From positions 124,001 to 188,000 of the forward strand of contig NZ_JAQPCG010000001.1 of NCBI RefSeq assembly GCF_028464145.1: a stretch of DNA of 64,000 nt, in the 5' to 3' direction. Position numbers and translations under genes: made by a program. This DNA is from Maribacter sp. PR1 (GTDB taxonomy: Bacteria > Bacteroidota > Bacteroidia > Flavobacteriales > Flavobacteriaceae). Under the pieces are notes generated by a model. It made no database searches. It saw only the letters and a program-made list of their open reading frames with translations, and had not been told where the DNA came from. Positions 18,811 through 52,064 of this stretch are shown in pieces; positions within the stretch are counted from its first letter, which is position 1; every line of letters starts with the position of its first letter.

Positions 18811-19290
18811 TTAAATTTTCTCAAAAACCAATCGATCAACGCTTCCATCACCTCCGCTCTCGTCCACAAGCTCTATTCTAGAGCTACTATAAGAAACGAT
18901 TTCCCAATCCTCAGAAATCTCAGCGAAGTTTACCGGTGAAGAGAAAAATATATTAAAGTCAATATCATCATCCGAGCTACTATCATCATCACTACTATTG
19001 GAGTCTGAAGTAATGCTCCAAGCACCTGAAAGAGATGTTTCACCGTTATCCGCACTTAGTTCTCCCGTAGCGGCAAAGACAAAGGTGTAATCTGTAAAAT
19101 AAGAAGTTTGATTAACCCCATCTTCTTCAAAAAGGGTTATTACCCAGTTACCGGAAGTTACGGTAGACTTGATATCTTCCACATTGGCAATGGAATTCAT
19201 ATCGTTCGAATCATCAGTTGATTCACATGATGTAAAAAACAAACTAGCATAAACGATAACAGCTAAACTTAAAAATTTTAATCTTCTCAT
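18811..19290 (-). CDS. Lipocalin-like lipoprotein, single module
   Basis: A 159-residue lipoprotein (FTSC, Cys23) whose mature part is one beta-rich module of about 100 residues: GNWVITLFEEDGVNQTSYF at the start, an internal GTW/GAWSI turn and a closing RIELVDESGGDGSVDRLV. The same module appears three times in the neighbouring 586-residue lipoprotein, so the two are paralogues. An acidic Ser/Asp run (SDSNSSDDDSSSDDD) interrupts the middle. Related small lipoproteins carry lipocalin-like domains; the ligand is unknown. It probably belongs to the sigma/FecR system by position. Confidence 0.75.
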   Translation of the reverse strand: MRRLKFLSLAVIVYASLFFTSCESTDDSNDMNSIANVEDIKSTVTSGNWVITLFEEDGVNQTSYFTDYTFVFAATGELSADNGETSLSGAWSITSDSNSSDDDSSSDDDIDFNIFFSSPVNFAEISEDWEIVSYSSSRIELVDESGGDGSVDRLVFEKI

Positions 19291-19358: not shown

Positions 19359-21119
19359 TTATTTTTCTAGAACCAAAACACTCACGGTACCATCACCGCT
19401 AATGTCCTTTAGCTCCAATCTACCTTCTTCTACGGAGACAAAATCCCAATCATCGGTCAATTCATCAAAAGGCATGTTATCTCCAAAGTTTAGATAGACC
19501 TTAAGTTTTTGATCTGCATTTCTAATTACTCTCCAAAGTCCGGCTCCAAAAGTTTCGCCACCTTCTTTGATTGCTATTTGGTATTCCGTCATAAAATTGA
19601 CACTATAACCGCCATAGCTATCTGTTTGGTCATTATCACCCTCAACATAAGAAGCAACACTCCAGTCACCACCCATCATAAAGTTTCTAATTTCCATAAC
19701 ATCCCCATCTCCGGCATTGTCATCACAAACACGTTGTAAAATAAGTTCATAATCAATTTCATCCACTTCGAATTTTAATCTACTGTTGGTCAACTCACGG
19801 ATTGGCCACTCAAAACTAACTCCTGGCTCATCTCCCATAGTAATTGCCATTACCAACTTAGCTTCCGTATTTAGGGCAACCTCCCATGTACCTTCGGATG
19901 TATTTATCCCGTTGCTCAAGGTAATTACACCATCGGTCATGAATTTGAACTCATATCCCAATAAACGGTCAATCTCTTCTCCTTGATTTTTCACTTTTTT
20001 TATCACCCATTCACATTCTTTAAGTATTTCCCTTAAAGAATCTGGATCGTTTTCATTAGGATTATCACCACAAATCTGTTTCATGATAATTCGATTACCC
20101 TCACCATTGTAAAGTTTAATCCTTCCTTCTTCAATCTCATAAATTCTCCATTCCAAGGTAAAATCCACCAAAGCTTCGAATTCCATGGTCAATATTGCAC
20201 CATTATCGTCCATCGAGGTACTCCATGTACCATACAAAAACTGTTCTGAACCTGTAATTGCTGTGACTTCTCCGTTTTCCTTGAAATTTAAAGCATAGTC
20301 AAAATACTGATCGGTTTGATCAACATCGTTTCTGTCAAATTCTTTTATGAACCAAGGGCACTCCATTAAATAAGCATCAAGACGTTCCTCGTCAAAATCA
20401 TCATCGTTATAATCATTGTCATCATCTTCATCACATGCATCCTTGGCATTTCTAATGTTCATTGCCAACTCTTCATTACTGTTTACCTCCACTTTAGAAC
20501 CATCGTACAATTCTAGCGTAATGGGAAAATCAAAGCTTACAAGATCGTTGTCCCCTAAACCTTTAAAGAAAAGTCTCAGATCCATATCACTTTCAACAAA
20601 CACCTCTCCCGTTTGTTCTAGATTGATGTCGAATGTATAAAGGGTCATAGGGTATACAAAATCTATGCATTCAATATCATCGTCTTCTCCACCTTCCTTA
20701 CATTGCTCAGCCAACGCTCTTAAATCTTCTAACCCATTTATGGTAATTTCAGTAAAATCACCAGAGGTAATGGTAACAGGAAATAATATTTCCAAGAAAT
20801 CTTCGTCATCATCTAAAGAATCAAAAATTTCCTCGATCAATTTCAAATCTGCTCGTGCATTTATGGTCAATTCCAATCCATTTGCCTCTACGGTGTATGG
20901 AAACTTAATATCATAACAACTAGTGCCATCTACAATATTATCAAAAGACCCATCTTTTGTCGCTGTGTTCTGTATGAGAACTGCGGTTGAAGAACTTGCG
21001 GTAATTGCCGCCTGGTCTTCACCAGTATTAATCTCTTCGAATTCATCTTGACATGAAGTAAAACTCAATGCCATAATAACTAAGCTTAGGTAAGCTGCAT
21101 AACTCAAAAACTTTTTCAT
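19359..21119 (-). CDS. Modular acidic lipoprotein with lipocalin-like repeats
   Basis: A 586-residue very acidic lipoprotein (FTSC, Cys23). Residues about 68-140 and 151-229 hold four short units that each begin with [FY]P-x-T and end in a helix, the pairs being closed by Cys68/Cys140 and Cys151/Cys229. Then come three beta-rich modules at about 246-350, 361-465 and 474-586, each opening with a Trp motif (CPWFIKEF, CEWVIKKV, GDWSVASY) and centred on GTWS, GTWEV or GLWRV. It is divergent from the ECF sigma gene and has the same candidate ECF promoter as fecR, so it is probably a regulated surface partner of the TonB receptor. Function unknown. Confidence 0.8.
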   Translation of the reverse strand: MKKFLSYAAYLSLVIMALSFTSCQDEFEEINTGEDQAAITASSSTAVLIQNTATKDGSFDNIVDGTSCYDIKFPYTVEANGLELTINARADLKLIEEIFDSLDDDEDFLEILFPVTITSGDFTEITINGLEDLRALAEQCKEGGEDDDIECIDFVYPMTLYTFDINLEQTGEVFVESDMDLRLFFKGLGDNDLVSFDFPITLELYDGSKVEVNSNEELAMNIRNAKDACDEDDDNDYNDDDFDEERLDAYLMECPWFIKEFDRNDVDQTDQYFDYALNFKENGEVTAITGSEQFLYGTWSTSMDDNGAILTMEFEALVDFTLEWRIYEIEEGRIKLYNGEGNRIIMKQICGDNPNENDPDSLREILKECEWVIKKVKNQGEEIDRLLGYEFKFMTDGVITLSNGINTSEGTWEVALNTEAKLVMAITMGDEPGVSFEWPIRELTNSRLKFEVDEIDYELILQRVCDDNAGDGDVMEIRNFMMGGDWSVASYVEGDNDQTDSYGGYSVNFMTEYQIAIKEGGETFGAGLWRVIRNADQKLKVYLNFGDNMPFDELTDDWDFVSVEEGRLELKDISGDGTVSVLVLEK

Positions 21120-21153: not shown

Positions 21154-21179
21154 AACAATTGACTTTAAAAAAACCCTAC
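21154..21179 (-). promoter_or_regulatory. Candidate ECF sigma promoter of the modular lipoprotein
   Basis: On the minus strand GTAGGGTTTTT (21169-21179), 10 bases, then TTGTT (21154-21158), ending 34 bases before the ATG. The same element at the same spacing stands before fecR. The spacing fits the -35/-10 layout of ECF sigma promoters; recognition by the adjacent sigma factor is inferred. Confidence 0.6.
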
Positions 21180-21202
21180 CTACATTTTTATTTTTTTTAA
21201 AA

Positions 21203-21210
21203 TATCTTTG
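21203..21210 (+). promoter_or_regulatory. Putative housekeeping -7 box of the ECF sigma gene
   Basis: TATCTTTG fits TAnnTTTG, 22 bases before the sigma factor ATG. No TTTG is seen 19 bases upstream. This suggests the sigma gene itself is read by the primary sigma factor, unlike fecR. Confidence 0.45.
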
Positions 21211-21232
21211 GTAAAAACCAGTCAATCTGAAT

Positions 21233-21739
21233 ATGGACGACCACCAAAATGTCTGTAAGGAAAGTACGTATAGCGAATTGTTTCATGCTCATTCAAAAAC
21301 GATTTTCAATTACATATATTATAAGTTCGGTAACAAGGAAAAAGCACATGATGCCGTGCAGGAAGCTTTTGTAAAACTTTGGGAGAACTGTGCAAAGGTT
21401 ACCCCGGGAAAAGCCAAATCCTACTTATACACAGTTGCAAACAATCTGTATTTAAATGTAATTAAAGCTGACAAGGTTAGGCTTAAATATGCCGATAAGA
21501 CCCTTAAAACAATACATGAGACGCCAGAATTTATAATGGAGGAGAATGAGTTCAAGGCAAAGTTGGATAAAGCTCTTAACGATTTGCCCGAAAATCAACG
21601 GTCCACGTTTTTATTAAATAGAATTGATGGTAAAAAGTATGCAGAGATTGCCGAATTGGAAGGTGTAAGTATTAAGGCCATTGAAAAACGGATGCATTTG
21701 GCATTAAAAACACTAAGGGAAAAAATTGATGGAATTTAA
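21233..21739 (+). CDS. ECF RNA polymerase sigma factor
   Basis: A 168-residue sigma-70 family factor of the extracytoplasmic type, with only regions 2 and 4. Region 2 covers about residues 8-75 (YSELFHAHSKTIFNYIYYKF, then DAVQEAFVKLWENC), and region 4 covers about 113-165 (LPENQRSTFLLNRIDGKKYAEI, EGVSIKAIEKRMHLALKTL). It is the first gene of a sigma-FecR-receptor array; the FecR protein is the expected membrane anti-sigma factor. A 151-base gap with its own promoter-like element separates it from fecR. Confidence 0.95.
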   Translation: MDDHQNVCKESTYSELFHAHSKTIFNYIYYKFGNKEKAHDAVQEAFVKLWENCAKVTPGKAKSYLYTVANNLYLNVIKADKVRLKYADKTLKTIHETPEFIMEENEFKAKLDKALNDLPENQRSTFLLNRIDGKKYAEIAELEGVSIKAIEKRMHLALKTLREKIDGI

Positions 21740-21841
21740 CTATGATAGTCGATATCATGAATAATTAATTTTCTGTAAAATCGATTTGATAAAGAAAAAT
21801 TATAAATGGCGACGATTGAATACTGTATACTGAAATAAAAA

Positions 21842-21867
21842 GTAGGGTTTTTCAATCGATAGTTGTT
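21842..21867 (+). promoter_or_regulatory. Candidate ECF sigma promoter of fecR
   Basis: GTAGGGTTTTT (21842-21852), 10 bases, TTGTT (21863-21867), 23 bases before the fecR ATG. It is identical in both blocks and in spacing to the element on the other strand upstream of the modular lipoprotein. It points to positive autoregulation of the anti-sigma/receptor operon by the adjacent sigma factor. Confidence 0.6.
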
Positions 21868-21890: not shown

Positions 21891-22802
21891 ATGCAAGAAA
21901 ATTACTTGGCAAAATGGCTTAACGGTGAGCTTTCGGAAAAAGAGGTTTCCGAATTTAAAAAGTCCAAAGAATACGCTTCTTATCTTAAGATTGCGAATGC
22001 TTCCCAGGATTTACGGGCACCGAATTTCGACGTGAATCAATCTTGGGAACTCCTACAGGCACAAAATGCCCAAAAGCATCCAAAAGTGATTACTATATCT
22101 CCGTTTAAATCCTTCTTAAGGGTGGCTGCAGTAATTGCCGTATTACTTACTGGTGCCTATTTTTATATCAATACCCTTGACGATAACATCAAGACGCAAC
22201 TAGCTGAAAACAAGGAGATAATTTTACCAGATAATTCTGAAATTCTTCTAAATGCAGAATCGGAACTATCCTACAGCGAAAAAAATTGGGATAGTAAAAG
22301 AGCTATTAAATTAGAGGGCGAGGCATTTTTTAAAGTGGCCAAAGGTAAAAAATTTACCGTTACTACCGACCAAGGAACAATCGCTGTATTGGGTACGCAA
22401 TTTAATGTTGAGAACAGGGACGGTTTTTTTGAAGTAACTTGTTTCGAAGGCTTGGTCAGTGTTACTATTGATGGGGAAGAGCAAAAGCTTCCGGCCGGTA
22501 ATTCCATCATTTCACTCAACGGTAATATAACAAAGTCACAAGTTGAAATCAATGGACAACCCTCTTGGTTAAATCAAGAGAGTTCCTTTAAAAGTATTCC
22601 TTTGAAATACGTACTTGCGGAATTTCAGCGACAACATAATATAGAAGTCGAATTAAAGGATATAGACGAAAATCTGCTATTCACAGGAACCTTTAGTAAC
22701 ATCGATAGAGATTTAGCGTTAAAAAGCATAAGTACCCCTCTCCAAATAAAGTTTAAATTAGAGGGAAACAAAGTGCTATTCTATGAAGAAAGCGCCCCTT
22801 AA
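21891..22802 (+). CDS. FecR family anti-sigma factor
   Basis: A 303-residue inner-membrane protein. A cytoplasmic N-terminal segment (1-73) that should hold the sigma factor is followed by one membrane helix at about 75-95, the FecR domain at about 100-215 (IILPDNSEILLNAES, LEGEAFFKVAKGKKF, VLGTQFNV, CFEGLVSV) and a C-terminal DUF4974 domain at about 230-300 that contacts the receptor's STN domain in this family. The stop overlaps the receptor gene by 20 bases, showing tight coupling. Confidence 0.94.
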   Translation: MQENYLAKWLNGELSEKEVSEFKKSKEYASYLKIANASQDLRAPNFDVNQSWELLQAQNAQKHPKVITISPFKSFLRVAAVIAVLLTGAYFYINTLDDNIKTQLAENKEIILPDNSEILLNAESELSYSEKNWDSKRAIKLEGEAFFKVAKGKKFTVTTDQGTIAVLGTQFNVENRDGFFEVTCFEGLVSVTIDGEEQKLPAGNSIISLNGNITKSQVEINGQPSWLNQESSFKSIPLKYVLAEFQRQHNIEVELKDIDENLLFTGTFSNIDRDLALKSISTPLQIKFKLEGNKVLFYEESAP

Positions 22803-25311
22803 AAAGCTTACGGTCCACCTCACACTACTCTTCCTGGTGTTCCTTGGGAACATAAGTAGTGCACAGGAAAAAACCATCAAAGAGATTACGATTATAGATT
22901 ATCTCCATGAACTGGAAAATTCATTTAGCGTTAAATTTTCCTTTATCGATGCAGATTTAGTCGGATTGCAAATTCCAAAATCCAATACGGATGACTTGGA
23001 ATCTTCATTGAAGCACATCTTACGGAATACCCCACTGGAAATACAAAAATTAAGTGAGCGTTATTATTCAATAATACTTAAAAACAAACTTTCAATTTGC
23101 GGGACAGTCCTCGACAATTTTGAAGATAATGCCATTTCTGGAGCTACTATACGAGTATTGGATGGTAAAAAATCGACCATTTCAGATAACACAGGGACAT
23201 TTTACTTGGAGGATGTACCTAGAAACTCGGTTATACAAATCAGCCACTTGGGTTTCAAACCCTTTTTAACCAAAGCTGAATACCTCATCAGTTCCACTCC
23301 CTGTGCTACGATTACTTTAGCCCTTAGTTATCAAGAGTTGGAAGAAGTGGTTGTTTACAAATTTCTTACAGATGGTCTAGCTAAATTTTCTGACGGAAGT
23401 ATACAAATGAATACGAGCGAATTTGGTATACTACCCGGACTCATTGAACCGGATATATTACAAACAGCCCAATCCCTTCCCGGTATTAAAAGTGTTGATG
23501 AAACCGTTTCGGACATCAATATTAGAGGAGGTACCAATGACCAAAACCTGATTCTTTGGGATGGAATTAAAATGTACCAGTCCGGTCATTTTTTTGGTCT
23601 TATATCGGCTTTTAATCCTTACTTAACGGATAAGATTACGATTATAAAAAATGGCACTAGCTCAATTTATGGGGATGGTGTCAGCGGTGTCATGGATATG
23701 CGCACCAAAAATTCCATTGAAACCAGTTTTTTTGGAGGTGCAGGAATTAATCTAATCAGTGGTGATATTTTTGGTCAAGTCCCTCTTGCCGAAAATTTAG
23801 CTATACAATTCTCCGGTAGACGTTCCCTTACAGATTTTTTGCAAACACCTACATATAATACCTTTTCGGAAAAAGCCTTTCAAGATAGTGAAGTAAATAC
23901 CGATAATGACTTTTTCTTTTACGACTTTACGGGCAAGTTGTTGTACGATATCAGCCCCGATCACAAAATTAGGTTGAGTCTTATACATATCAACAACGAC
24001 CTTGACAATATAACAACGAATACCAATGATAACGAGGCCACAGAAAGTTCCTTGGACCAAATCAACATTTCCTTCGGCGGAAGCCTTGAAAGCGAATGGA
24101 CAGATAACTTTTACACCCAGGCGAACCTCTATTATACCCAATACAGGCTCACGGCCTTTAGTATTACGGAAAATGCGTCCCGGCAATTATATCAAAATAA
24201 CCTCGTAAAGGAATCCAGTGCAAAATTCAATACCATTTACAAAATAGCACCCACTTTACAATGGACGAACGGATATCAATTCACGGAAACCGGTATTGAA
24301 AACATTACCAGAATAAACCAACCCTTCTTTGAAAGCAGTATAAAGGGCGTCATAAGGTCGCAAAGCCTATATTCAGAATTTCGCCTTGAGACGGAAGACA
24401 AAAATTTCTTTGCCCAATTTGGGGGAAGGCTTAATTATATTGCAAACATCAATACTTTTGAACAAGTATTGGTAGAACCCAGATTAAGTATCTCCTATGA
24501 GTTCGCCCCCTATTTTAAATTGGAGGCCTTGGGCGAATTCAAGAGCCAATACACCAACCAGATTATTGACCTCGAACAAAACTTTTTAGGCCTGGAAAAA
24601 AGAAGATGGACCCTTGCAGATGGCAATGTCCTACCTATTGTCCAAAGCAAACAAGGTTCTTTTGGCATCAACTATGATGAAAACCGCCTCTACATAGGTG
24701 TTGAAGGCTTTTATAAAAAGGTTACGGGTATCAACGTATATACACAAGGGTTTCAGAACCAAAACCAGTTCAATGGTGAAATTGGACAGTATCTAATTAA
24801 GGGCGTCGAATTTCTAATAAACAAAAAAACCAATGACTACAGCGCTTGGTTCAGTTATGCATACAATGACAACAATTACACTTTTGAAACTATAACACCC
24901 CCTAACTTCCCAAATAATCTAGAACTTAAACATTCCTTTACCCTGGCAGGAAATTATAACTATAACAATTTTAAGCTGGGTATTGGATTTAATTATCGAT
25001 CAGGAAGACCATTTACAGAACCCAGTACAAATAACCCGGTCAATACGAGTGTAGTTCCAAATGAAATCAATTATAATACTCCAAATAGTAGTAGCTTACC
25101 GGAATATTTTAGAGCAGATGCCTCCGCTACCTATGATTTTAATATAAGTAGTTCCATAAAGGGATCAGTGGGAGCTTCCATACTGAATTTCACCAACAGA
25201 AAAAATATACTGAACACCTATTACAGACTCAATGAAACGAATGAGATAGAAACTGTACAACGTGTGTCTTTGGGCGTTACTCCCAATGCCAGTTTTCGAG
25301 TTAATTTTTAA
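22783..25311 (+). CDS. STN-containing TonB-dependent receptor
   Basis: An 842-residue outer membrane receptor with signal peptide (to about residue 28, ISSAQ). In order: an STN signalling domain at about 30-105, a CarboxypepD_reg-like domain at about 107-190 (GTVLDNFEDNAISGATIRV), a plug at about 220-310 (LPGIKSVDETVSDINIRGG, GDGVSGVMDMRT) and a 22-strand barrel ending with an aromatic residue (ASFRVNF). The STN domain relays ligand binding to FecR and so to the sigma factor. No SusD partner is present, so it is not a typical glycan SusCD pair; the ligand is unknown. It converges on argS 4 bases away. Confidence 0.93.
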   Translation: MKKAPLKKLTVHLTLLFLVFLGNISSAQEKTIKEITIIDYLHELENSFSVKFSFIDADLVGLQIPKSNTDDLESSLKHILRNTPLEIQKLSERYYSIILKNKLSICGTVLDNFEDNAISGATIRVLDGKKSTISDNTGTFYLEDVPRNSVIQISHLGFKPFLTKAEYLISSTPCATITLALSYQELEEVVVYKFLTDGLAKFSDGSIQMNTSEFGILPGLIEPDILQTAQSLPGIKSVDETVSDINIRGGTNDQNLILWDGIKMYQSGHFFGLISAFNPYLTDKITIIKNGTSSIYGDGVSGVMDMRTKNSIETSFFGGAGINLISGDIFGQVPLAENLAIQFSGRRSLTDFLQTPTYNTFSEKAFQDSEVNTDNDFFFYDFTGKLLYDISPDHKIRLSLIHINNDLDNITTNTNDNEATESSLDQINISFGGSLESEWTDNFYTQANLYYTQYRLTAFSITENASRQLYQNNLVKESSAKFNTIYKIAPTLQWTNGYQFTETGIENITRINQPFFESSIKGVIRSQSLYSEFRLETEDKNFFAQFGGRLNYIANINTFEQVLVEPRLSISYEFAPYFKLEALGEFKSQYTNQIIDLEQNFLGLEKRRWTLADGNVLPIVQSKQGSFGINYDENRLYIGVEGFYKKVTGINVYTQGFQNQNQFNGEIGQYLIKGVEFLINKKTNDYSAWFSYAYNDNNYTFETITPPNFPNNLELKHSFTLAGNYNYNNFKLGIGFNYRSGRPFTEPSTNNPVNTSVVPNEINYNTPNSSSLPEYFRADASATYDFNISSSIKGSVGASILNFTNRKNILNTYYRLNETNEIETVQRVSLGVTPNASFRVNF

Positions 25312-38827: not shown

Positions 38828-39820
38828 TTAATCCTTATCTAATTTGTATTTTGATAAATCCATTCCAAAGCTAAGACCTTTGTTGATGACCAACTCCTCT
38901 AGCTCAGTTAAAGACTTTTTACCGAAGTTTCTAAACTTCATCAAATCATTTTTGTTGAAAGAAACCAAATCACCTAAGGTGTCCACTTCTGCCGCCTTTA
39001 AACAATTTAAGGCACGTACAGAAAGATCCATATCGACCAATTTAGTTTTCAACAACTGTCTCATGTGTAATGACTCCTCATCATACGTCTCTGTCTGAGC
39101 AATCTCATCAGCTTCTAGCGTAATACGCTCATCGGAGAACAACATGAAATGGTGAATTAAAACCTTGGCAGCTTCTGTTAAGGCATCCTTTGGATGTATA
39201 GAGCCATCAGAAACAATTTCGAAAACTAATTTTTCGTAGTCCGTTTTTTGTTCAACACGAAAGTTCTCGATACTATACTTAACATTCTTTATTGGAGTAA
39301 AGATAGAGTCAACTGCAATAGTCCCAATTGGTGCACCAGATTTTTTGTTCTCCTCTGCAGGAACATAGCCTCTTCCCTTATCAATAGTAATCTCCATATT
39401 GATACTCACCTTTGGATCCATGTTACAGATAACCAGGTCAGGGTTCAACACTTGATAGCCAGAAATAAATTTTTGGAAATCCCCAGCAGTTAATTGTTCC
39501 TTTCCACTTACCGAGATAGAAACCACCTCTGCCTCCGAGTCCTCGATTTGTTTTTTAAAGCGAACTTGCTTCAAGTTCAATATAATTTCGGTTACATCTT
39601 CTACAACACCGGAAATTACAGAGAACTCATGTTCTACCTTGTCTATCCTTACGGATGTAATGGCATGGCCTTCCAAGGAAGAAAGCAACACCCTTCTTAA
39701 TGCATTCCCAACAGTTAATCCATAACCAGGTTCCAAAGGACGAAATTCGAACTTTCCTTCGAAATCTGAGGAATCGATCATTATTACTTTATCGGGTTTC
39801 TGAAAATTAAATAATGCCAT
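38828..39820 (-). CDS. rpoA: RNA polymerase alpha subunit
   Basis: A 330-residue alpha subunit. The N-terminal assembly domain (about 1-230) includes [20 protein letters not shown]. The C-terminal helix-hairpin domain (about 255-320) includes [20 protein letters not shown], the surface that binds UP elements and activators. It lies between rpsD and rplQ as usual. Confidence 0.99.
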
Positions 39821-39839
39821 AATTGGATCAGTGTTGTTT

Positions 39840-40445
39840 TTATTTAGAGTATAACTCGACTATTAATTGTTCTTTGATGTTTTCTGGAATCTGAAGTCTT
39901 TCAGGAACAGTAACAAACGTTCCTTCCTTTTTCTCAGTATTCCAAGTAATCCACTCGTAAACACTACTGCTAGCAGCTAGTGAATCTTGAATACTCTGTA
40001 AGGATTTAGACTTTTCCCTAACACCAACTACGTCTCCAGCTTTTAGGGAGTAAGATGGAATATTAACTATCTCTCCATTAACTGTTATGTGTCTATGCGA
40101 AACTAATTGTCTTGCACCACTTCTTGTAGGGGAAATACCCATTCTAAAAACCACATTGTCCAGACGGCTTTCACATAATTGCAATAGGATTTCACCAGTT
40201 ACTCCTTCTTTTCTTTTTGCGGTGGAGAAAAGATTTCTAAACTGTTTTTCTAAAATACCGTATGTATATTTAGCTTTTTGTTTCTCCATTAACTGTACGG
40301 AATACTCAGACTTTTTTCCTCTACGTCTGTTATTCCCATGCTGTCCTGGAGGGTAATTTTTCTTTTCAAAAGACTTATCGTCTCCGAATATCGCCTCACC
40401 AAACTTACGGGCGATTTTTGATTTTGGTCCTGTATATCTTGCCAT
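39840..40445 (-). CDS. rpsD: 30S ribosomal protein S4
   Basis: A 201-residue primary 16S-binding protein with the S4 domain at about 93-155 ([27 protein letters not shown]). S4 is the autogenous repressor of the alpha operon in E. coli. Here a 91-base gap with short hairpins precedes rpsD itself, unlike most other gaps in the cluster. Confidence 0.99.
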
Positions 40446-40477
40446 TTTCTAAAATTGTGAAGATGAGATTATGAATT

Positions 40478-40516
40478 AAGGCTTATCCTTCGATAATCGT
40501 AACTACACCTTCGGTG
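40478..40516 (-). promoter_or_regulatory. Three mini-hairpins upstream of rpsD, candidate S4 leader
   Basis: Within the 91-base rpsK-rpsD gap, three small inverted repeats follow each other: CACC-TTC-GGTG (40506-40516), CGA-TAA-TCG (40491-40499) and AAGG-CTTAT-CCTT (40478-40490). Ribosomal protein genes often carry such leaders. Regulation by S4 is a guess from position. Confidence 0.35.
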
Positions 40517-40536
40517 AAATTTATATTAATACTTGA

Positions 40537-40929
40537 TTAAACTCTTCTTCTTTTTGGAGGCCTACATCCATTATGTGGCATTGGAGTAACATCAATAATT
40601 TCTGTTACCTCAATTCCTGAATTATGAATCGAACGGATTGCAGATTCCCTGCCGTTTCCTGGTCCTTTAACATAAACCTTTACTTTGCGTAAGCCCGCCT
40701 CATGGGCAACCTTCGCACAATCTTCCGCTGCTACCTGAGCCGCATAAGGAGTATTCTTTTTGGAACCTCTAAAACCTAACTTACCAGCCGATGACCAAGA
40801 AATAACATCTCCCTTCTTATTTGTCAATGATATGATGATATTGTTAAATGAAGCCGTTACGTGGGCCTCACCTACTGAATCAACTATAACTTTACGCTTT
40901 TTGGTTACCTTAGTATTTGCCTTTGCCAT
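40537..40929 (-). CDS. rpsK: 30S ribosomal protein S11
   Basis: A 130-residue platform protein with the conserved [26 protein letters not shown] and the C-terminal signature [18 protein letters not shown]. It follows rpsM after 9 bases and precedes the rpsD leader gap. Confidence 0.99.
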
Positions 40930-40938
40930 AACTATCTA

Positions 40939-41313
40939 TTATTTAGTAGCTTTCTTCTTGTTAGCAACTGTTTTTCTCTTTCCTTTTCTAGTCCTAGAGT
41001 TGTTCTTTGTACGTTGACCTCTTAATGGCAAGCCGGATCTATGACGTATACCTCTGTAACATCCAATATCCATTAATCGCTTAATGTTCAATTGAGTTTC
41101 AGAACGTAACTCACCTTCAATAGTGTAGGAAGAAACTGCATCCCTAATACGACCTATTTCATCATCGTTCCAATCAGAAACCTTAGTATCCTCACTAACT
41201 TGGGCTTTTTCCAAAATTTCCTTGGCCCTACTTTTTCCAATCCCGAAAATATAGGTCAAGGCTATTACGCCCCTCTTTTGTTTTGGTATATCAATACCCG
41301 CGATTCTTGCCAT
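40939..41313 (-). CDS. rpsM: 30S ribosomal protein S13
   Basis: A 124-residue 30S head protein with [20 protein letters not shown] at the start, [20 protein letters not shown] as signature and a basic tail that contacts P-site tRNA. It follows rpmJ by 2 bases. Confidence 0.99.
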
Positions 41314-41315
41314 AA

Positions 41316-41432
41316 TTACCCTTGTCTTTGTTTAAATCTAGGATTCTTTTTGTTGATTACGTACAATCTGCCTTTTCTGCGAACTATTTTGCAGTCGGCA
41401 CTTCTCTTTTTTATTGATGCTCTTACTTTCAT
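41316..41432 (-). CDS. rpmJ: 50S ribosomal protein L36
   Basis: A 38-residue protein, [20 protein letters not shown] followed by [18 protein letters not shown], with the L36 Lys/Arg pattern. Of the family's zinc-ribbon cysteines only C14 is kept, so this is the zinc-independent (C-minus) form. It lies between infA and rpsM, its usual place. Confidence 0.96.
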
Positions 41433-41445
41433 CTTACTTGCTTTC

Positions 41446-41661
41446 TTAGTATCTATAAGTAATTCTTGCTTTCGTAAGGTCATATGGACTCATCTCCAAT
41501 TTAACCTTGTCTCCAGGTAACAACTTTATATAATGCATGCGCATCTTACCTGAAATATGCGCTGTAACTACATGTCCATTTTCCAATTCTACTCGAAACA
41601 TTGCATTTGACAATGCTTCTATAATGGATCCATCTTGTTCTATCGCTGCTTGTTTAGCCAT
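41446..41661 (-). CDS. infA: Translation initiation factor IF-1
   Basis: A 71-residue OB-fold protein that blocks the A site during initiation. Conserved residues: [33 protein letters not shown] and ITYRY at the end. It follows secY after 3 bases. Confidence 0.98.
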
Positions 41662-41664
41662 AAA

Positions 41665-43008
41665 TTATGCTACTTTTCTATTTTTTCCGGTTTTCATTAA
41701 TCCGTCATAATGTCTATTCAAAAGGTAAGAATTTACCTGTTGCACAGTATCTATTGCCACTCCCACCATAATTAACAGGGAAGTACCTCCATAAAATAAG
41801 GCCCATCCTGCTTGTACATCTAACAATTTTACCACTATTGCGGGCAAAACGGCCAGCAAAGCTAAAAATATAGATCCAGGTAACGTAATTAATGACATTA
41901 TTTTATCCAAGAAATCTCCAGTTTCCTTTCCTGGCCTAATACCTGGGATAAATCCGCCACTACGTTTTAGATCATCGGCCATTTTATTTGTTGGTACGGT
42001 AATAGCCGTGTAGAAATACGTGAAAATAATGATTAGAAAGGCGAACAATAAATTATAGGCCCAACCAAAAATATCACTGAACTGTACTTGCATCCATTGT
42101 CCAAATGATGTATCATCAAAAGCTCCTCCAATCATTCCAGGCACAAACATGATTGCTTGGGCAAATATGATTGGCATAACCCCGGAGGCATTTAATTTTA
42201 GAGGAATGTATTGCCTTGAGCCCATGACATTCTTTTCATATCCACCAGATGCCGTTCTCCTAGCATACTGTACGGGTATTTGACGAGTTGCCATAACTAA
42301 AAGCACACTAGCCAAAATAACCAGGAACCATACAATTACCTCTATAAGTATAAACATTAAACCACCATTATTATTGGTAGTTCTTGAAACAAATTCTTGA
42401 ACAAAAGATTGGGGCATTGTTGCTATAATACCAATCATAATCAATAAAGAAATACCATTTCCAATACCTTTATCCGTAATTTTCTCGCCCAACCACATGG
42501 CAAATACACATCCAGATACCAATATAATTACGGCCGGAATCATAAAATCCAAACCTTTTCCAAGTATAAAGGCAGTATCAGGAACACCAAAAGCTCCCAA
42601 TCCATACAAATATGCCGGTGCCTGAACGATACAAATACCAATTGTTAACCAACGGGTAATTTGATTAATCGTTTTTCTTCCGCTTTCACCTTCCTTCTGT
42701 AATTTTTGAAGGTAAGGAATCGCAATACCCATTAACTGAACCACAATCGAAGCGGAGATATAAGGCATAATACCCAATGCAAAAATGGAAGCATTGGCAA
42801 AAGCCCCACCGGTAAAAGCATTTAATAGACCAAAAATACCCTGATCTGTACCGTCGGCCAATCCCCCTAACTGGGTTGAGTCTATACCTGGAAGAACAAT
42901 TTGGCAACCAAATCTATAAACCAATAGAAGGCCTAGAGTTATGATAATTCTATTCCTTAGCTCTTCTATCTTCCAAATATTGGATATTGTATCGATAAAT
43001 TTCTTCAT
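41665..43008 (-). CDS. secY: Protein translocase subunit SecY
   Basis: A 447-residue channel with ten membrane helices, the core of SecYEG. Signature 1 is in LVYRFGCQIVLPGI and the plug follows; GIGNGISLLIM and the cytoplasmic loop RRTASGGYEKN are typical. It sits between rplO and infA, in the spc part of the cluster. Confidence 0.99.
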   Translation of the reverse strand: MKKFIDTISNIWKIEELRNRIIITLGLLLVYRFGCQIVLPGIDSTQLGGLADGTDQGIFGLLNAFTGGAFANASIFALGIMPYISASIVVQLMGIAIPYLQKLQKEGESGRKTINQITRWLTIGICIVQAPAYLYGLGAFGVPDTAFILGKGLDFMIPAVIILVSGCVFAMWLGEKITDKGIGNGISLLIMIGIIATMPQSFVQEFVSRTTNNNGGLMFILIEVIVWFLVILASVLLVMATRQIPVQYARRTASGGYEKNVMGSRQYIPLKLNASGVMPIIFAQAIMFVPGMIGGAFDDTSFGQWMQVQFSDIFGWAYNLLFAFLIIIFTYFYTAITVPTNKMADDLKRSGGFIPGIRPGKETGDFLDKIMSLITLPGSIFLALLAVLPAIVVKLLDVQAGWALFYGGTSLLIMVGVAIDTVQQVNSYLLNRHYDGLMKTGKNRKVA

Positions 43009-43022
43009 GTTCCCGCTTATAC

Positions 43023-43475
43023 TTATAAACTTATTGCTTCACCACCTGCAGCTTCAATAGCAGCTTTTGCCGAAGCAGAAAATTTATGTACAGATACTTT
43101 AAGGGCAGCCTTCAATTCTCCTCCCCCTAAAATTTTAACCAAATCATTTTTACCCACTAAACCATTCTCAACCAAAGTATCGAAAGAGACAGCGTCTTTT
43201 ATTACCTTATCATCTACTAGTTCCTGTAGCTTATTAAGGTTTATACCTTTGTAGTCCTTACGATTAATATTCGTAAAACCAAACTTGGGAACACGTCTTT
43301 GCAAAGGCATTTGACCACCTTCAAACCCGATTTTCTTTGAGTAACCAGATCTAGATTTAGCACCTTTATGGCCTCTTGCAGCAGTACCACCCTTTCCAGA
43401 GCCCTGACCTCTACCTAATCGTTTACCATCTCTATTTACGGAACCTTCTGCAGGTTTTAGATTACTTAAATTCAT
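43023..43475 (-). CDS. rplO: 50S ribosomal protein L15
   Basis: A 150-residue late-assembly protein with the Gly/Arg-rich N-terminus (RLGRGQGSGKGGTAARGHKG) and GFEGGQMPLQRRVPKFGF. It is followed by secY after 14 bases. Confidence 0.99.
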   Translation of the reverse strand: MNLSNLKPAEGSVNRDGKRLGRGQGSGKGGTAARGHKGAKSRSGYSKKIGFEGGQMPLQRRVPKFGFTNINRKDYKGINLNKLQELVDDKVIKDAVSFDTLVENGLVGKNDLVKILGGGELKAALKVSVHKFSASAKAAIEAAGGEAISL

Positions 43476-43486
43476 TAGATCTATAT

Positions 43487-43666
43487 TTAAGCTTCTTCTG
43501 TAGAAACTAAATGTTTAACTTTATTTATCATGCCCAGAATATTGGGTGTTGCATCGTGCTCAACTACCTGTCCAATTCTTTTCAGTCCAAGAGCTTCCAA
43601 AGTCCTTTTTTGATTTTGAGGCTTTTTAATACCGCTCTTAAGTTGTGTTACTTTAATCTTTGCCAT
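43487..43666 (-). CDS. rpmD: 50S ribosomal protein L30
   Basis: A 59-residue protein: AKIKVTQLKSGIKKPQNQKR, LEALGLKRIGQVVEHDATP and ILGMINKVKHLV match the L30 fold. The frame runs from ATG at 43666 to TAA at 43487. It lies between rpsE and rplO and completes the spc order. Confidence 0.97.
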   Translation of the reverse strand: MAKIKVTQLKSGIKKPQNQKRTLEALGLKRIGQVVEHDATPNILGMINKVKHLVSTEEA

Positions 43667-43698
43667 TTTATATAGTAATTAGTTTAGTATTTAATAAA

Positions 43699-43735
43699 AA
43701 GTACTGGATTTCTGTTCAGATAACTTTAAGTACTT
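43699..43735 (-). promoter_or_regulatory. Hairpin in the rpsE-rpmD gap
   Basis: AAGTACT and AGTACTT pair across a 23-base loop, followed on the minus strand by TTTATTAAA. The 97-base gap is long for this cluster. It may be a weak attenuator or a processing site. Confidence 0.3.
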
Positions 43736-43763
43736 CTTTCTATATACTTTTTACTATTAATAT

Positions 43764-44288
43764 TTATCCTTTAAAAACCTTATCCATAGAAATTCCACGT
43801 TGTTGTGAAATTGTTCTGGCATCCCTTAATTGCAACAATGCATCAAAAGTGGCTTTTACTACATTGTGAGGGTTGGAAGACCCTTGTGACTTGGACAATA
43901 CATCATGAACACCAACAGCTTCCAATACGGCCCTTACTGCACCTCCGGCAATCACACCTGTACCATGTGAAGCTGGCTGAATATATACACGCGCACCTCC
44001 ATATTTTCCTTTTTGCTCATGAGGGAGGGTGCCTTTATTCAAAGGAATTCGAATCAAATTCTTTTTACCATCTTCAATTGCCTTGGCAATTGCAGTAGCA
44101 ACCTCTTTTGACTTTCCAAGACCGTGCCCTACAACACCATTCTCATCACCAACAACAACGATAGCAGAAAAACCGAAAGCCCTACCACCTTTAGTTACCT
44201 TGGTTACACGTTGTACCCCAACTAACCTATCTTTTAAATCTAAACCTCCCGGTTTAACAGTTTCTACGTTTTTGTATTTTTGGAACAT
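43764..44288 (-). CDS. rpsE: 30S ribosomal protein S5
   Basis: A 174-residue protein of the accuracy centre. The double-stranded-RNA-binding-like N-terminal domain includes [20 protein letters not shown] and [17 protein letters not shown]; the C-terminal domain includes [15 protein letters not shown]. It follows rplR after 9 bases. Confidence 0.99.
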
Positions 44289-44297
44289 ACCTTTAAT

Positions 44298-44654
44298 TTA
44301 GAATTTTAATCCTGCTTCCCTTGCGCCTTCCGCTAAAGACTTAACTCGTCCGTGATAAAGGTTACCACCTCTATCAAATGCAACCTTTTCTATTCCAGCC
44401 GCTTTAGATTTCTCAGCGATAGCCTTGCCTACAAGTGCAGCAATTTCTGTTTTGTTACCCTTAGAGGTAGCAATATCCTTATCTCTGGATGAAGCTGCAG
44501 CCAAGGTTACACCTTTTACATCATCTATCAATTGTGCATAGATTTCGCTGTTACTTCTAAAGACTGATAGTCTTGGCCTTTCGGCAGTTCCATTGGATAC
44601 CTTACGGATTCTCCTTCGAATTCTATACTTTCTTTGTGTTTTTGATAATCCCAT
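44298..44654 (-). CDS. rplR: 50S ribosomal protein L18
   Basis: A 118-residue 5S rRNA-binding protein with [18 protein letters not shown] and the C-terminal [20 protein letters not shown]. It lies between rplF and rpsE with about 10-base gaps. Confidence 0.99.
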
Positions 44655-44664
44655 AATACTTTTA

Positions 44665-45207
44665 TTAAGCCGATTTACCAGCTTTTCTTCTTAATTGTTC
44701 ACCAACAAATTTGACTCCTTTTCCTTTGTAAGGCTCAGGCTTACGAAATGATCTGATTTTTGCCGCTATATGTCCCACTAACTGCTTATCGTGAGAAGTT
44801 AATTTAACTATAGGGTTCTTTCCTTTTTCAGAAATAGTTTCAACTTTAACCTCTGGTGCCAAGTCAAAAACGATATTGTGAGAAAAACCTAATGCCAAAT
44901 CAAGCTTTTGACCCTGATTACTGGCACGGTAACCAACACCTACCAACTCTAGTTCTTTAGTCCACCCTTTGGATACACCTTCAACCATGTTAAGTATCAA
45001 AGATCGATACAAACCGTGTTTTGCTTTATGCTCTTTAGAGTCTGACGGTCTTGTTACCCAAGCCTGTCCATCTTCTACTTTTACATCAACACCTGAAAAA
45101 TCTTGAGTCAACTCACCTAATTTACCTTTTACGGTAATTACCTTGTCTTTGACTTCAATTGTAACTCCATCAGGAATTGCTATCGGATTATTTCCTATTC
45201 TAGACAT
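44665..45207 (-). CDS. rplF: 50S ribosomal protein L6
   Basis: A 180-residue protein with two L6 repeats, [15 protein letters not shown] at the start and the signature [19 protein letters not shown] near the end. It sits near the factor-binding site. It follows rpsH after 20 bases. Confidence 0.99.
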
Positions 45208-45227
45208 CTTCTAACTCTTTAATTCTA

Positions 45228-45626
45228 TTAATAAACGTAGCATAAAACCTCTCCACCAACATTCTCCGCCTTGGCCTGCTTACTCGTCATAACACCATGT
45301 GATGTCGACACAATAGCAATACCGAGACCGTTAAGGACTCTAGGCAAATTATCATTGGATGAATACTTTCTCAAACCTGGCTTACTTATACGTTGTATTC
45401 TCTTGATTACAGGTTCTTTCGTCATCTTATCATATTTCAGGGCAATCTTAATTGTTCCCTGAACTTTATCATCTTCGAACTTGTAACTTAAAATATATCC
45501 TTGGTCGAATAATATTTTAGTTATTTCCTTTTTTAGGTTGGAAGCCGGGATTTCCACAACTCTGTGTCCTGCCCTACTCGCGTTTCTAACTCTTGTTAGA
45601 TAATCTGCTATAGTATCTGTTACCAT
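45228..45626 (-). CDS. rpsH: 30S ribosomal protein S8
   Basis: A 132-residue 16S-binding protein ([19 protein letters not shown], and [19 protein letters not shown] at the C-terminus). In E. coli S8 represses the spc operon at rplE; no equivalent leader is obvious here. It follows rpsN after 66 bases. Confidence 0.99.
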
Positions 45627-45692
45627 TTATATATAATTCGGTGACGGTTTTTAGCGTTAGACTAAACCTGAAACCAGTTATTAATTCTATTT

Positions 45693-45962
45693 CTACCAGC
45701 TGGCCTTTTTAACCCCAGGTATCAAACCTTGGTTAGCCATTTCCCTGAACATAACCCTAGAGATTCCAAAAGTCCTCATATAACCTTTAGGTCTACCAGT
45801 AAGCTTACATCTGTTGTGCATACGTACTGGTGAGGCATTTTTTGGCAATTTCTGTAGTGCTTCGTAATCGCCAGCCTCCTTAAGAGCCTTACGCTTTTCA
45901 GCATATTTAGCTACAGTCTTTGCCCTTTTTCTCTCACGGGCTTTCATTGATTCTTTAGCCAT
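45693..45962 (-). CDS. rpsN: 30S ribosomal protein S14
   Basis: An 89-residue protein of the zinc-independent (C-minus) type, with the basic start [16 protein letters not shown] and signature [20 protein letters not shown]. It follows rplE after 1 base. Confidence 0.98.
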
Positions 45963-45963
45963 T

Positions 45964-46515
45964 CTAGTTCTTTTTAAAAGGTAATCCTAATTCCGTTAAT
46001 AATGACTTTGCTTCCTTGTCCGTTTCGGCCGAGGTAACAAAAGTTACGTCCATCCCATTAATTCTATTGATTTTATCAATATTAATCTCTGGGAAGATAA
46101 TCTGTTCGGTAATTCCTAGATTATAGTTTCCACGTCCATCAAAGCCTGTAGCCTTAATTCCTTGAAAATCCCTAACCCTAGGCAATGCGGAGGTAACCAA
46201 TCTATCTAAAAATTCATACATCCGATCGCCACGTAATGTTACTTTTGCCCCAATTGGCATTCCCTTTCTTAACTTGAAAGCAGCAACATCCTTTTTAGAA
46301 AGAGTAGCAACAGCTTTCTGACCAGTAATCATGGTCATTTCATCCACTGCATGGTCAATAAGCTTCTTATCCGCTACCGCTGCACCAACTCCTCTACTAA
46401 CAACAATTTTTTTCAACTTAGGAACTTGCATTACGTTATTGTAACCAAATTCTTCGGTCAAGGCCGCAACTATACGGTCCTTGTATTCTTTCTTTAATCT
46501 TGCAACGTAAGCCAT
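45964..46515 (-). CDS. rplE: 50S ribosomal protein L5
   Basis: A 183-residue 5S rRNA-binding protein with [37 protein letters not shown] and [19 protein letters not shown]. It follows rplX after 2 bases. Confidence 0.99.
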
Positions 46516-46517
46516 AA

Positions 46518-46832
46518 CTAAATTACTTCATTTGATTTCTTGGAAAACCTAACCTTTTTTCCATCTCTCATTTCATACCCAACTCGTGTAGTTTCACCCG
46601 ATTTGGAATCAATTAACGATAGATTGGAAACATGAATAAAAGCTTCCTTTTTTACGATACCACCTTGAGGGTTCTTTGCACTTGGCTTCTCATGTTTAGA
46701 AACCATATTTACTCCCTCTACAATCGCTTTATTCTTTTCAAGATTTACGGTCATTACCTTACCTTCAGAACCTTTATGGTCCCCAGCAACGACTCTTACC
46801 GTATCTCCTGTTTTTATTTTTAACTTTTTCAT
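46518..46832 (-). CDS. rplX: 50S ribosomal protein L24
   Basis: A 104-residue assembly-initiator protein with a KOW motif ([20 protein letters not shown]). The ATG at 46832 is chosen because the family starts [10 protein letters not shown]; the longer frame from 46874 would overlap rplN by 29 bases. The gap to rplN is then 13 bases. Confidence 0.97.
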
Positions 46833-46845
46833 CTTGATAATCAAA

Positions 46846-47214
46846 TTATAGTACCTCCGGGGCCAATGAAACAATTTTCATAAACTGCTTGTCCCTAAGC
46901 TCTCTTGCCACAGGACCAAATACACGAGTTCCGCGCATTTCACCAGTAGGGTTTAACAAAACACATGCGTTATCATCAAAACGGATATAAGAACCATCCG
47001 GTCTTCTAACCTCCTTTTTTGTTCTAACCACTACAGCAGTAGAAACAGCACCTTTTTTTATACCTCCGTTTGGAGTAGCTTCCTTAACGGTAACAACAAT
47101 TTTATCACCAATAGAAGCATATCTTCTTTTTGTACCCCCAAGAACACGGATAGTTAAAACTTCCTTTGCTCCGGTATTATCCGCTACCTTTAATCTAGAT
47201 TCTTGCTGTAACAT
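46846..47214 (-). CDS. rplN: 50S ribosomal protein L14
   Basis: A 122-residue protein, canonical from [19 protein letters not shown] to the C-terminal [16 protein letters not shown]. It contacts 16S rRNA in an intersubunit bridge. It follows rpsQ after 3 bases. Confidence 0.99.
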
Positions 47215-47217
47215 AAC

Positions 47218-47475
47218 TTATTTGGCTCTTTCTAAGATTTCTACTAACCTCCAACACTTGGTCTTGCTCATAGGACGTGTCTCCATAATCTTTACGGTAT
47301 CACCGATATTACAATCGTTCTTTTCGTCATGAGCAACATATTTCTTTGTTTTCAAAACGAACTTACCGTACATGGGGTGTTTTACTCTTTTAACCTCGGC
47401 GACAACGATGGATTTTTCCATTTTATCACTTGTTACTACCCCGACTCTCTCTTTTCTTAAGTTTCTTTTTTCCAT
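47218..47475 (-). CDS. rpsQ: 30S ribosomal protein S17
   Basis: An 85-residue OB-fold protein with [19 protein letters not shown] and [20 protein letters not shown]. It lies between rpmC and rplN. Confidence 0.99.
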
Positions 47476-47488
47476 AAAGCAGAACCAA

Positions 47489-47680
47489 TTATTGGTTTTC
47501 CCTTTTAGTTAATTCAGTAGCTAATCTTGCAACCGTTCTTCTTACTTTTCTAATTTGAAGAGGGTTTTCCAATGGAGTCACAAAATGAGCCATTTTTAAA
47601 TCCGCATGCTGCTTTTTATACTCTGCAAGTTTTTCCGTAAGTCCTTCAACAGACAATTCCTTAATTTCTTGTTTTTTCAT
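47489..47680 (-). CDS. rpmC: 50S ribosomal protein L29
   Basis: A 63-residue two-helix protein ([20 protein letters not shown], then [19 protein letters not shown]) near the tunnel exit. It follows rplP after 12 bases. Confidence 0.98.
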
Positions 47681-47692
47681 GATTTCCTACGA

Positions 47693-48118
47693 TTAATTGT
47701 CAACTGTATAATCTCTTGCAACAATAAATTTTGTTCTAACAGGAAGTTTCTGTGCGGCCAGTCTAAGCGCCTCCTTAGCTATATCGATAGAAACACCTGC
47801 AATTTCAAACATTACCCTTCCAGGTTTCACAACGGCTACAAAATATTCCGGCGCACCCTTACCTTTACCCATACGTACTTCTAGAGGTTTTTTGGTAATC
47901 GGCTTATCTGGAAATATTTTAATCCATAATTGACCTTCCCTTTTCATATATCTCGTAGCTGCAATACGAGCGGCTTCGATTTGACGGGATGTCAAAAAAG
48001 AAGAGTCCATAGATTTTATTCCGAACATACCATTTGAAAGTTGATGCCCTCTACCGGCATTGCCTTTCATACGGCCTTTCTGCATTTTTCGGAACTTCGT
48101 TCTTTTTGGTTGTAACAT
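47693..48118 (-). CDS. rplP: 50S ribosomal protein L16
   Basis: A 141-residue protein at the A-site tRNA elbow. Canonical [20 protein letters not shown], then [18 protein letters not shown]. It follows rpsC after 21 bases. Confidence 0.99.
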
Positions 48119-48139
48119 TTTTCTCTACTTCTTTAATTA

Positions 48140-48859
48140 TTACTTTCTACGACGAGGTTTTCTTCCACCGTCTTTCTTTCCACCTTTAGATGATTGTCCT
48201 TTTTGCATTCCAACCAATGGAGAAAGCTCTCTTTTTCCGTAAACCTCACCCTTCATAATCCAAACCTTGATACCTAGTTTTCCATAAGTAGTCTGGGCTT
48301 CGTGCAAGGCATAATCTATATCCGCCCTAAAAGTAGACAGCGGAATCCTTCCATCTTTATAAGATTCGGAACGCGCCATCTCAGCTCCGTTAAGACGACC
48401 TGAAATTTGAATTTTAATACCTTCGGCATTCATTCTCATAGCAGCTGCAATCGCCATTTTTATAGCCCTTCTAAATGAAATTCTACTTTCTATTTGGCGT
48501 GCAATACTCGCAGCCACAAGGTTGGCATCCAACTCCGGTCTCTTAATCTCGTAAATATTAATCTGAACCTCCTTGTTGGTAATTTTCTTAAGCTCTTCCT
48601 TTAGCTTATCTACTTCTTGCCCACCTTTACCGATAATAATACCCGGTCTAGCAGTGGTTACAGTAACCGTTATCAATTTTAGCGTTCTTTCTATAATAAC
48701 TCTAGAAACACTTGCCTTTGACAACCTAGCATGGATATACTTTCTGATTTTGTCGTCCTCTGCCAGTTTATCACCGTAATCATTTCCTCCGTACCAGTTA
48801 GATTCCCATCCCCTGATGATTCCTAGACGATTTCCTATTGGATTAGTTTTCTGTCCCAT
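48140..48859 (-). CDS. rpsC: 30S ribosomal protein S3
   Basis: A 239-residue protein at the mRNA entry. The KH domain includes [20 protein letters not shown]; the C-terminal domain includes [21 protein letters not shown] Gly/Lys/Arg-rich tail ends GGRKPRRRK. It follows rplV after 1 base. Confidence 0.99.
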
Positions 48860-48860
48860 T

Positions 48861-49268
48861 CTAGCTTTCTGTATTATTATTAGAACCCAAAATTAAGGTT
48901 ACATGGTTCGAACGTTTTCTTATCCTGTGTGCTCTTCCTTGTGGAGCCGGACGTAATCTTTTCAACATAGCGCCACTATCCACACGAATTTCGGCAACAA
49001 CCAAATCTGCATCCTCCAAGCTGGCATCTTCATTTTTTGCTTGCCAATTAGCTAAAGCTGAAAGCAATAATTTTTCCAACTTTCTTGAAGCTTCCTTAGG
49101 GTTAAACCTTAAGATAGCAAGGGCCTTTTCAACCTTCTCACCACGAACCAAATCAGCTACTAGCCTCATTTTTCTTGGCGAAGTAGGGCAATTGTTCAAT
49201 TTTGCAAAAGCCACTTTTTGCTTTTCTGCCTTTATTCTTTCGGCCATTTGTTTTTTACGAACTCCCAT
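48861..49268 (-). CDS. rplV: 50S ribosomal protein L22
   Basis: A 135-residue protein lining the peptide tunnel. [20 protein letters not shown] at the start and the beta-hairpin [20 protein letters not shown], where macrolide-resistance changes arise in other bacteria. The N-terminal 20 residues are a Lys-rich extension. Confidence 0.98.
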
Positions 49269-49271
49269 AGC

Positions 49272-49550
49272 TTACTTCTTACCTTTATTCTTTGCACCTG
49301 CATGACCTCTAAAGGAACGCGTTGGTGAAAATTCTCCTAATTTATGTCCTACCATATTCTCAGTAATGAAAACAGGTACAAATTGTCTTCCATTATGAAC
49401 AGCTATTGTAAGCCCTACAAAATCCGGAGTAATCATTGATGCTCTAGACCATGTTTTTATTACGGACTTTTTACCGGAAGAAACACTTTGCTGTATCTTC
49501 TTCTCTAAACTGTAATGAACGTAAGGTCCTTTTTTTAGTGAACGTGCCAT
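49272..49550 (-). CDS. rpsS: 30S ribosomal protein S19
   Basis: A 92-residue 30S head protein ([18 protein letters not shown], then [17 protein letters not shown]). It follows rplB after 13 bases. Confidence 0.99.
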
Positions 49551-49563
49551 TTCTTTCTACTTT

Positions 49564-50388: not shown

Positions 50389-50397
50389 TTCTCGTCT

Positions 50398-50688: not shown

Positions 50689-50692
50689 GATT

Positions 50693-51948: not shown

Positions 51949-51985
51949 ACTTAAATTATTAATTACTTGTTATTAAAAATTATTC

Positions 51986-52016: not shown

Positions 52017-52064
52017 GAAATTATTTTATCTCCGTTTTTCCCTCGCCCGCAGCTCAGGACATGT

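Follow-up and report, generated by a model that had tools for sequence, protein, structure and literature searches.

A putative ECF sigma factor promoter element shared by a FecR-receptor locus, a divergent lipoprotein gene and dispersed sites, including a predicted small RNA, in Maribacter

The window, by which we mean the entire 64,000-nucleotide stretch of Maribacter sp. PR1 DNA that was analysed, encodes an ECF sigma factor of 168 amino acids (21233..21739, + strand) matching the Pfam families Sigma70_r2 and Sigma70_r4_2. The protein scores 119.0 bits against NCBIfam TIGR02985 (Sig70_bacteroi1), below the curated cut-off of 126.4. Two further genes follow on the same strand, encoding a FecR-type anti-sigma factor of 303 amino acids (21891..22802; Pfam FecR, E 2.1e-21; FecR_C, E 1.4e-7) and a TonB-dependent receptor of 842 amino acids (22783..25311; Pfam Plug and CarbopepD_reg_2). 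No Pfam STN match was obtained for the receptor at E values up to 1, and about 100 residues precede its carboxypeptidase-like domain. Divergent from the sigma gene is a gene for a modular lipoprotein of 586 amino acids (19359..21119, - strand), in which a lipoprotein signal was recognized by eye and no Pfam family was matched at the cut-off. An ORF located 68 bp downstream on the same strand encodes a second lipoprotein of 159 amino acids (18811..19290), weakly similar to the first over this stretch (E 9.1e-5), and both genes are presumed to be carried on one transcript. An AlphaFold model of the larger lipoprotein, built from 48 sequences, is partly confident (mean pLDDT 77.7, pTM 0.43). In a Foldseek search, 114-122 columns of this model matched the lipocalin-like Bacteroides proteins 4qrl and 5byp (probability 1.00, TM 0.54-0.59 of the target); whole-length matches with an rmsd near 20 were disregarded. 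The lipocalin-like match would fall in the repeated C-terminal modules, and our guess is that the lipoprotein is a surface partner of the receptor. The sigma start codon was called mechanically; TTG is the first possible start in 18 of the 19 orthologous loci in which a sigma ORF was found, and the window copy has ATG. Elsewhere in the window, the dense small ORFs at 38828-55424 (- strand) are an ordinary cluster of ribosomal-protein, secY, rpoA and fusA genes.

The sigma gene is flanked by two copies of the 26-mer GTAGGGTTTTT-N10-TTGTT, which are free of mismatches, lie on opposite strands and have a spacing of exactly 10 in each case. The lipoprotein-side element (21154..21179, - strand) consists of a -35-like GTAGGGT (21179-21173) and a -10-like TTGTT (21158-21154), the latter ending 34 bases before the lipoprotein ATG, whose first base is 21119. 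In the element ahead of fecR and the receptor gene (21842..21867, + strand), GTAGGGT occupies 21842-21848 and TTGTT occupies 21863-21867, ending 23 bases before the fecR ATG (21891). These sequences, strands, spacings and distances had been reported by a first-pass annotation made from the sequence, and all of them proved exact, as did the presence of a housekeeping-type box upstream of the sigma gene described below. With up to two mismatches allowed, three sites were observed in the window, against a mean of 0.16 and a maximum of 2 in 100 dinucleotide shuffles; the third site, at 22418 inside fecR, has two mismatches and looks like a chance match. Within the whole window genome, four sites were found with at most one mismatch, compared with one for the reversed pattern, and one of them, with a single mismatch, lies between ORFs that by eye resemble outer-membrane efflux and thioesterase genes (L003). 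Relatives keep the core GTAGGGT-N14-TTGT(T/C), with a variable run of T behind its first box.

The sigma gene carries the housekeeping-type -7 box TATCTTTG at 21203..21210 (+ strand), 23 bp from the divergent GTAGGG. A TAnnTTTG box is found 22-24 bp from the divergent GTAGGG in 28 of 30 orthologous loci. By the usual geometry of housekeeping promoters, the expected place of the -33 contact falls on the ECF -35 box. Because the divergent element and the -7 box lie only 22-24 bp apart and the two promoters overlap in this manner, they should exclude each other, and active sigma factor may thereby damp its own synthesis.

Conservation of the element at orthologous loci, the lack of which the first-pass annotation had named as grounds for abandoning its proposal, was examined in the 30 best fecR loci, comprising the window genome, 28 further Maribacter genomes and one genome of another genus (G036), with the FecR proteins of the relatives being 59-76% identical. 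GTAGGGT-N14-TTGTT precedes fecR in all 30 loci, and the lipoprotein-side element is likewise present in 30 of 30, with ATGTT as its -10 box in one of them (L031). A chance resemblance within A/T-rich intergenic DNA, in which T runs do inflate apparent matches, has a negligible probability: base composition alone predicts about 8e-5 exact copies on the two strands of the window, and we rejected this explanation given the presence of the element at both genes in every orthologous locus. The comparison was widened to the best 80 named loci retained from a scan of named genomes, which overlap partly with the Maribacter genome set and come from Maribacter, Flagellimonas/Allomuricauda, Croceivirga, Zobellia, Arenibacter, Pricia, Eudoraea, Cellulophaga, Flavobacterium, Winogradskyella and others. 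An ORF of at least 600 amino acids follows fecR in 80 of 80, a criterion of size and not of family membership. On the fecR side, 75 of the 80 loci match the regular expression, four have a degenerate element by eye (L172, L234, L245 and L247), and one (L203) has no element there. The divergent side matches in 64 of 80, and five of the 16 misses have no upstream sequence available.

If one factor reads both sites of a locus, the two should change together. Among 71 loci with a divergent ORF of more than 300 amino acids, 55 have both elements by a strict regular expression, and within each of these 55 pairs the spacing is identical and the last -10 base agrees (T/T in 45 pairs, C/C in 10, never mixed), which is what a single reader for both sites predicts. 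The -10 forms in these pairs are TTGTT, TTGTC or CTGTT, and the first -10 base differs between the two sites in a single pair (L239). The TTGTC form is found mainly in Flavobacterium and its relatives, where both copies of a locus carry it; since it is confined to a few related lineages, the co-variation represents few evolutionary events.

The distribution of the element was then compared with that of the genes by scanning 36 Maribacter genomes with the strict pattern GTAGGGTW-N13-TTGTT, which gave 152 matches versus 20 for the reversed pattern. Orthologous FecR and lipoprotein are present in the same 32 of 36 genomes and absent from G008, which is only 83% complete, G018, G021 and G035; the lipoprotein match is partial in G002, G023 and G031, with an internal stop in two of these. 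The 32 system-bearing genomes account for 150 of the strict matches, against two in the four system-less genomes (1, 1, 0 and 0). Some of the strict matches fall within genes, where they seem to be due to chance. The genome-wide search with fixed spacing that the first-pass annotation had proposed yielded four strict matches in the window genome, namely the two locus sites, G000:C22:117644 and G000:C21:137161.

As the first-pass annotation had proposed, the neighbouring ECF sigma factor very probably uses the element as its promoter; the co-occurrence of the FecR system, the lipoprotein and the motif copies across 36 genomes and the agreement of the last -10 base in 55 of 55 site pairs support that proposal. 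GTAGGGT alone could be an operator, so that a separate transcription factor might act on the same genes with the adjacent sigma factor reading something else. We regard this as improbable, since the element has two boxes in one orientation with an invariant spacing (55 of 55 pairs), stands at a promoter-like distance beside a sigma gene and is lost together with the sigma system, and since the short leaders that separate element and start codon showed no TAnnTTTG box on inspection by eye in 30 loci. Slightly less improbable, though still unlikely, is recognition of the sites by one or more other ECF sigma factors of the same genome. The window genome has at least nine FecR-like genes, and overlapping ECF regulons are known from other bacteria (PMC9723704). 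Against this, the motif copies are lost from system-less genomes that retain FecR paralogues, and the paralogous sigma-FecR-receptor loci L052 (G000:C12:249500-257000) and L053 (in G012) lack the GTAGGGT element; both of these loci have a divergent lipoprotein-like gene.

The first-pass annotation had named fecR and the lipoprotein gene as targets; they are not the total, as further sites lie before other genes and before a predicted small RNA. At G000:C22:117644, the element precedes a 27-codon ORF for a single-span membrane peptide, followed by a terminator-like hairpin, with a gene for an AhpC-type peroxiredoxin on one side and one for a cyclophilin/FKBP isomerase on the other. This ORF, which has no Pfam match, is present in 8 of 8 aligned loci. 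Among 12 genomes examined, the element was found there in three of eight that bear the system (in one of them by eye, as CTGTT) versus none of four that do not. A second form of this microprotein, of 27-28 amino acids and ending in RKK or similar, is encoded beside the cyclophilin/FKBP isomerase gene (L464-L475); in place of the element, its upstream region has ACGCAACC(T/A)TTT and a box resembling ATCTA, and the four system-less genomes showed no other form. A gene for a 55-amino-acid membrane protein, adjoining an OmpA-family gene, follows the element in four other loci, and several further matches lie before genes that appear lipoprotein-like by eye. Eleven Flavobacterium-type genomes with the TTGTC form gave 26 strict matches versus three for the control, most of them being the two sigma-locus sites; in five of the Flavobacterium-type genomes (L482, L485, L488, L499 and L502) the TTGTC form precedes a gene for an exported protein of 152-155 amino acids, one member of which, scanned from one codon early, had no Pfam match. 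In L489 and L490, an extra copy of the element lies between the sigma and lipoprotein genes and is followed by a short ORF resembling a membrane span.

The site at G000:C21:137161 lies about 27 bp before the start of pdxH, which encodes pyridoxamine-phosphate oxidase, and points away from it, towards a convergent gene of the SIMPL family. No ORF follows the element; it is followed by a conserved stretch of about 110 nt that ends in an intrinsic terminator and that we predict to be a small RNA. The element and the predicted RNA occur in 31 of 32 system-bearing Maribacter genomes, the exception (G024) being 64% complete. Across 30 distinct sequences, the ten pairs of the terminator helix are paired in 100% of cells. 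Three pairs have changed on both sides, a number reached by 6 of 500 shuffles and by no slid version of the helix, which gave at most one; in further pair types the helix does not stand out (127 of 500 shuffles). A ATGAAAAAG-like start near the 5' end of the stretch, and the position of its element some 27 bp ahead of the pdxH start codon in the opposite reading direction, would also suit a short-peptide leader or a region regulating pdxH. Such an alternative to a small RNA appears unlikely, if somewhat less so than a different sigma factor acting at these sites, as the conserved part ends in a covarying terminator directed away from pdxH and the reading frame varies. Loci L096, L107 and L112 have no start codon at that place, and a coding peptide was rejected on these grounds. 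Rfam searches with seven loci, including L092, L100 and L113, gave seven matches with E values of 0.21-0.75, all far below the gathering scores, and a known Rfam family was therefore rejected as well.

A covariance model of the predicted RNA found matches in 30 of 149 genomes of the family at E values up to 0.01, the weak ones near this limit being doubtful. Outside Maribacter there are 28 matches, of which 17 have the element within 260 bp upstream and 11 do not. In 13 of the 17, the left neighbour shows by eye a pdxH-like start (HPFR or HPFK), and in L250, L257, L264 and L270 an inserted stretch separates the element from the RNA core. Some of the 11 matches without the element would be paralogues with another upstream region, and some are probably due to chance. 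Matches in L263, L268, L272, L267, L271 and L276 have a GCTATGAAAAAG-like 5' part, a TTGGTT stretch and a terminator; they stand elsewhere in their genomes behind different upstream sequences and are perhaps more paralogues of the RNA family. A third match in the window genome (G000:C5:40900-41000, E 0.003) falls at the 3' end of a protein-coding gene and was put down to chance.

Directly downstream of the first predicted RNA, a second, similar one with its own terminator lies in tandem (L092:927-1025, - strand, on G000:C21). It shares GCTATGAAAAAGA-like and TTGGTTG-like stretches with the first and was found in 28 of 31 system-bearing genomes; its upstream box differs, consisting of TGTAAGG, 14-15 bases and CGAC, and the tandem RNA may be under another ECF sigma factor. 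A trial pattern for its promoter was mis-spaced and found one place in 36 genomes. In the system-less genomes G018, G021 and G035, the pdxH-side element has been lost and the first RNA and its terminator have decayed, whereas the tandem RNA is intact in all three, which argues that the element and the first RNA follow the sigma system and not the locus.

Possible targets of the first RNA were sought by scanning 16 genomes with the reverse complement of its conserved core, giving 108 places against 83 for the reversed pattern. The 106 real sites fetched (two at the RNA locus were omitted) and 74 control sites were reduced to 94 real sites, after 12 were set aside as self, and 72 control sites, two being unrecovered. 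Translation starts accounted for 15 of the 94 real sites and 6 of the 72 control sites (p = 0.16), and among those with at most one mismatch the numbers were 4 of 8 and 1 of 5 (p = 0.56). An ATG at -3 to +5 of the match was found in 12 of 94 versus 1 of 72 (p = 0.007), with a cut chosen afterwards and a control that is biased because genuine start regions are rich in A and the reversed pattern, unlike the real one, does not end in AAA. Candidate sites at translation starts of exported-protein genes include an exact one (L302) and three with one mismatch (L305, L334 and, in the window genome, L309). The small RNA may pair with the translation starts of exported-protein mRNAs.

Taken together, these observations are best explained by the following model, in which we have considerable confidence as a whole. 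GTAGGGT-N14-TTGTT would be a -35/-10 promoter for the ECF sigma factor whose gene lies between the two copies. A housekeeping promoter would drive the sigma gene, and FecR would hold the sigma protein until a signal passing through the TonB-dependent receptor and FecR frees it. Free sigma factor would then drive transcription of fecR and the receptor gene, thereby acting back on its own inhibitor and sensor, and of the divergent lipoprotein genes. Its predicted regulon would also extend to dispersed envelope genes: almost every Maribacter would have the ~110-nt predicted small RNA divergent from pdxH, and subsets of genomes the 27-amino-acid membrane microprotein, the 55-amino-acid membrane protein and further lipoproteins.

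A wider reading, which we put forward as a conjecture and consider rather doubtful, would be an envelope-response circuit of Flavobacteriaceae that evolved independently of sigma-E. Each of several ECF sigma factors would have its own paralogue from a single small-RNA family and another from a single family of 27-28-amino-acid membrane microproteins, with distinct promoter boxes: GTAGGGT/TTGTT for the sigma factor described here, TGTAAGG/CGAC-like for the tandem RNA and the ACGCAACC type for the other microprotein. In this circuit the RNAs would cover A-rich translation starts and so silence the mRNAs of exported proteins, and the sigma gene's own housekeeping promoter would be blocked by the divergent ECF promoter.

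The open-access papers searched contained nothing naming a GTAGGGT/TTGTT promoter or the pdxH-side RNA; where published texts containing the letters GTAGGGT were looked into, these belonged to a primer and a gene sequence. The analysis outlines an undescribed regulon that would place a surface lipoprotein, very small membrane proteins and a predicted small RNA behind one DNA element in related marine bacteria. Flavobacteria have many FecR-linked ECF sigma factors, and the putative Maribacter promoter is recognizable by its sequence alone. Having both a conserved regulon of several genes and a predicted small RNA, such a promoter makes what these systems sense and control directly testable, and the promoter itself is a ready reporter for finding the signal.

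In enterobacteria, the envelope response of sigma-E (RpoE) includes the small RNAs RybB, MicA and MicL. The Maribacter system resembles it in having an ECF sigma factor and a predicted regulon that combines envelope proteins with a small RNA whose 5' region is conserved and whose terminator is intrinsic. It differs in the type of sigma and anti-sigma factor, in the promoter and in the sequence of the predicted RNA.

Alternative promoters have also been described in the same family, in Flavobacterium psychrophilum, where the accessible text of a transcriptome study (PMC9723704) assigns only one motif, SM6, to an ECF-type sigma factor; SM6 has a CGT box in its -10 region and drives type IX secretion genes, and a second motif, SM5 (TAnnTTGY), is associated with LPS, amino-acid and gliding genes. 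The Maribacter -10 box, TTGTT, is unlike that of SM6, with no CGT among the 55 scored pairs. SM5 also has TTG and a pyrimidine in its -10 region; the TA is not conserved in the Maribacter element and the consulted text mentions no GTAGGGT box, but judged by the description of SM5 the two may overlap (PMC9723704).

The closest likeness is to FecI-FecR-FecA and HasI-HasS, with which the Maribacter locus has in common an ECF sigma gene, an adjoining gene for a FecR-domain anti-sigma factor and a TonB-dependent receptor. According to PMC9249621, fecIR and hasI are not autoregulated and the anti-sigma gene hasS belongs to the regulon of its sigma factor. The Maribacter sigma gene would similarly not be under its own control, as for fecIR and hasI, and its anti-sigma gene would be in the regulon, as for hasS. 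In contrast to those systems as described there, the Maribacter element stands before fecR and not before the receptor alone, no STN domain is detected on the receptor by Pfam, and a divergent modular lipoprotein and dispersed targets including the predicted small RNA are added. The system would work like FecI-type cell-surface signalling with an added dispersed regulon.
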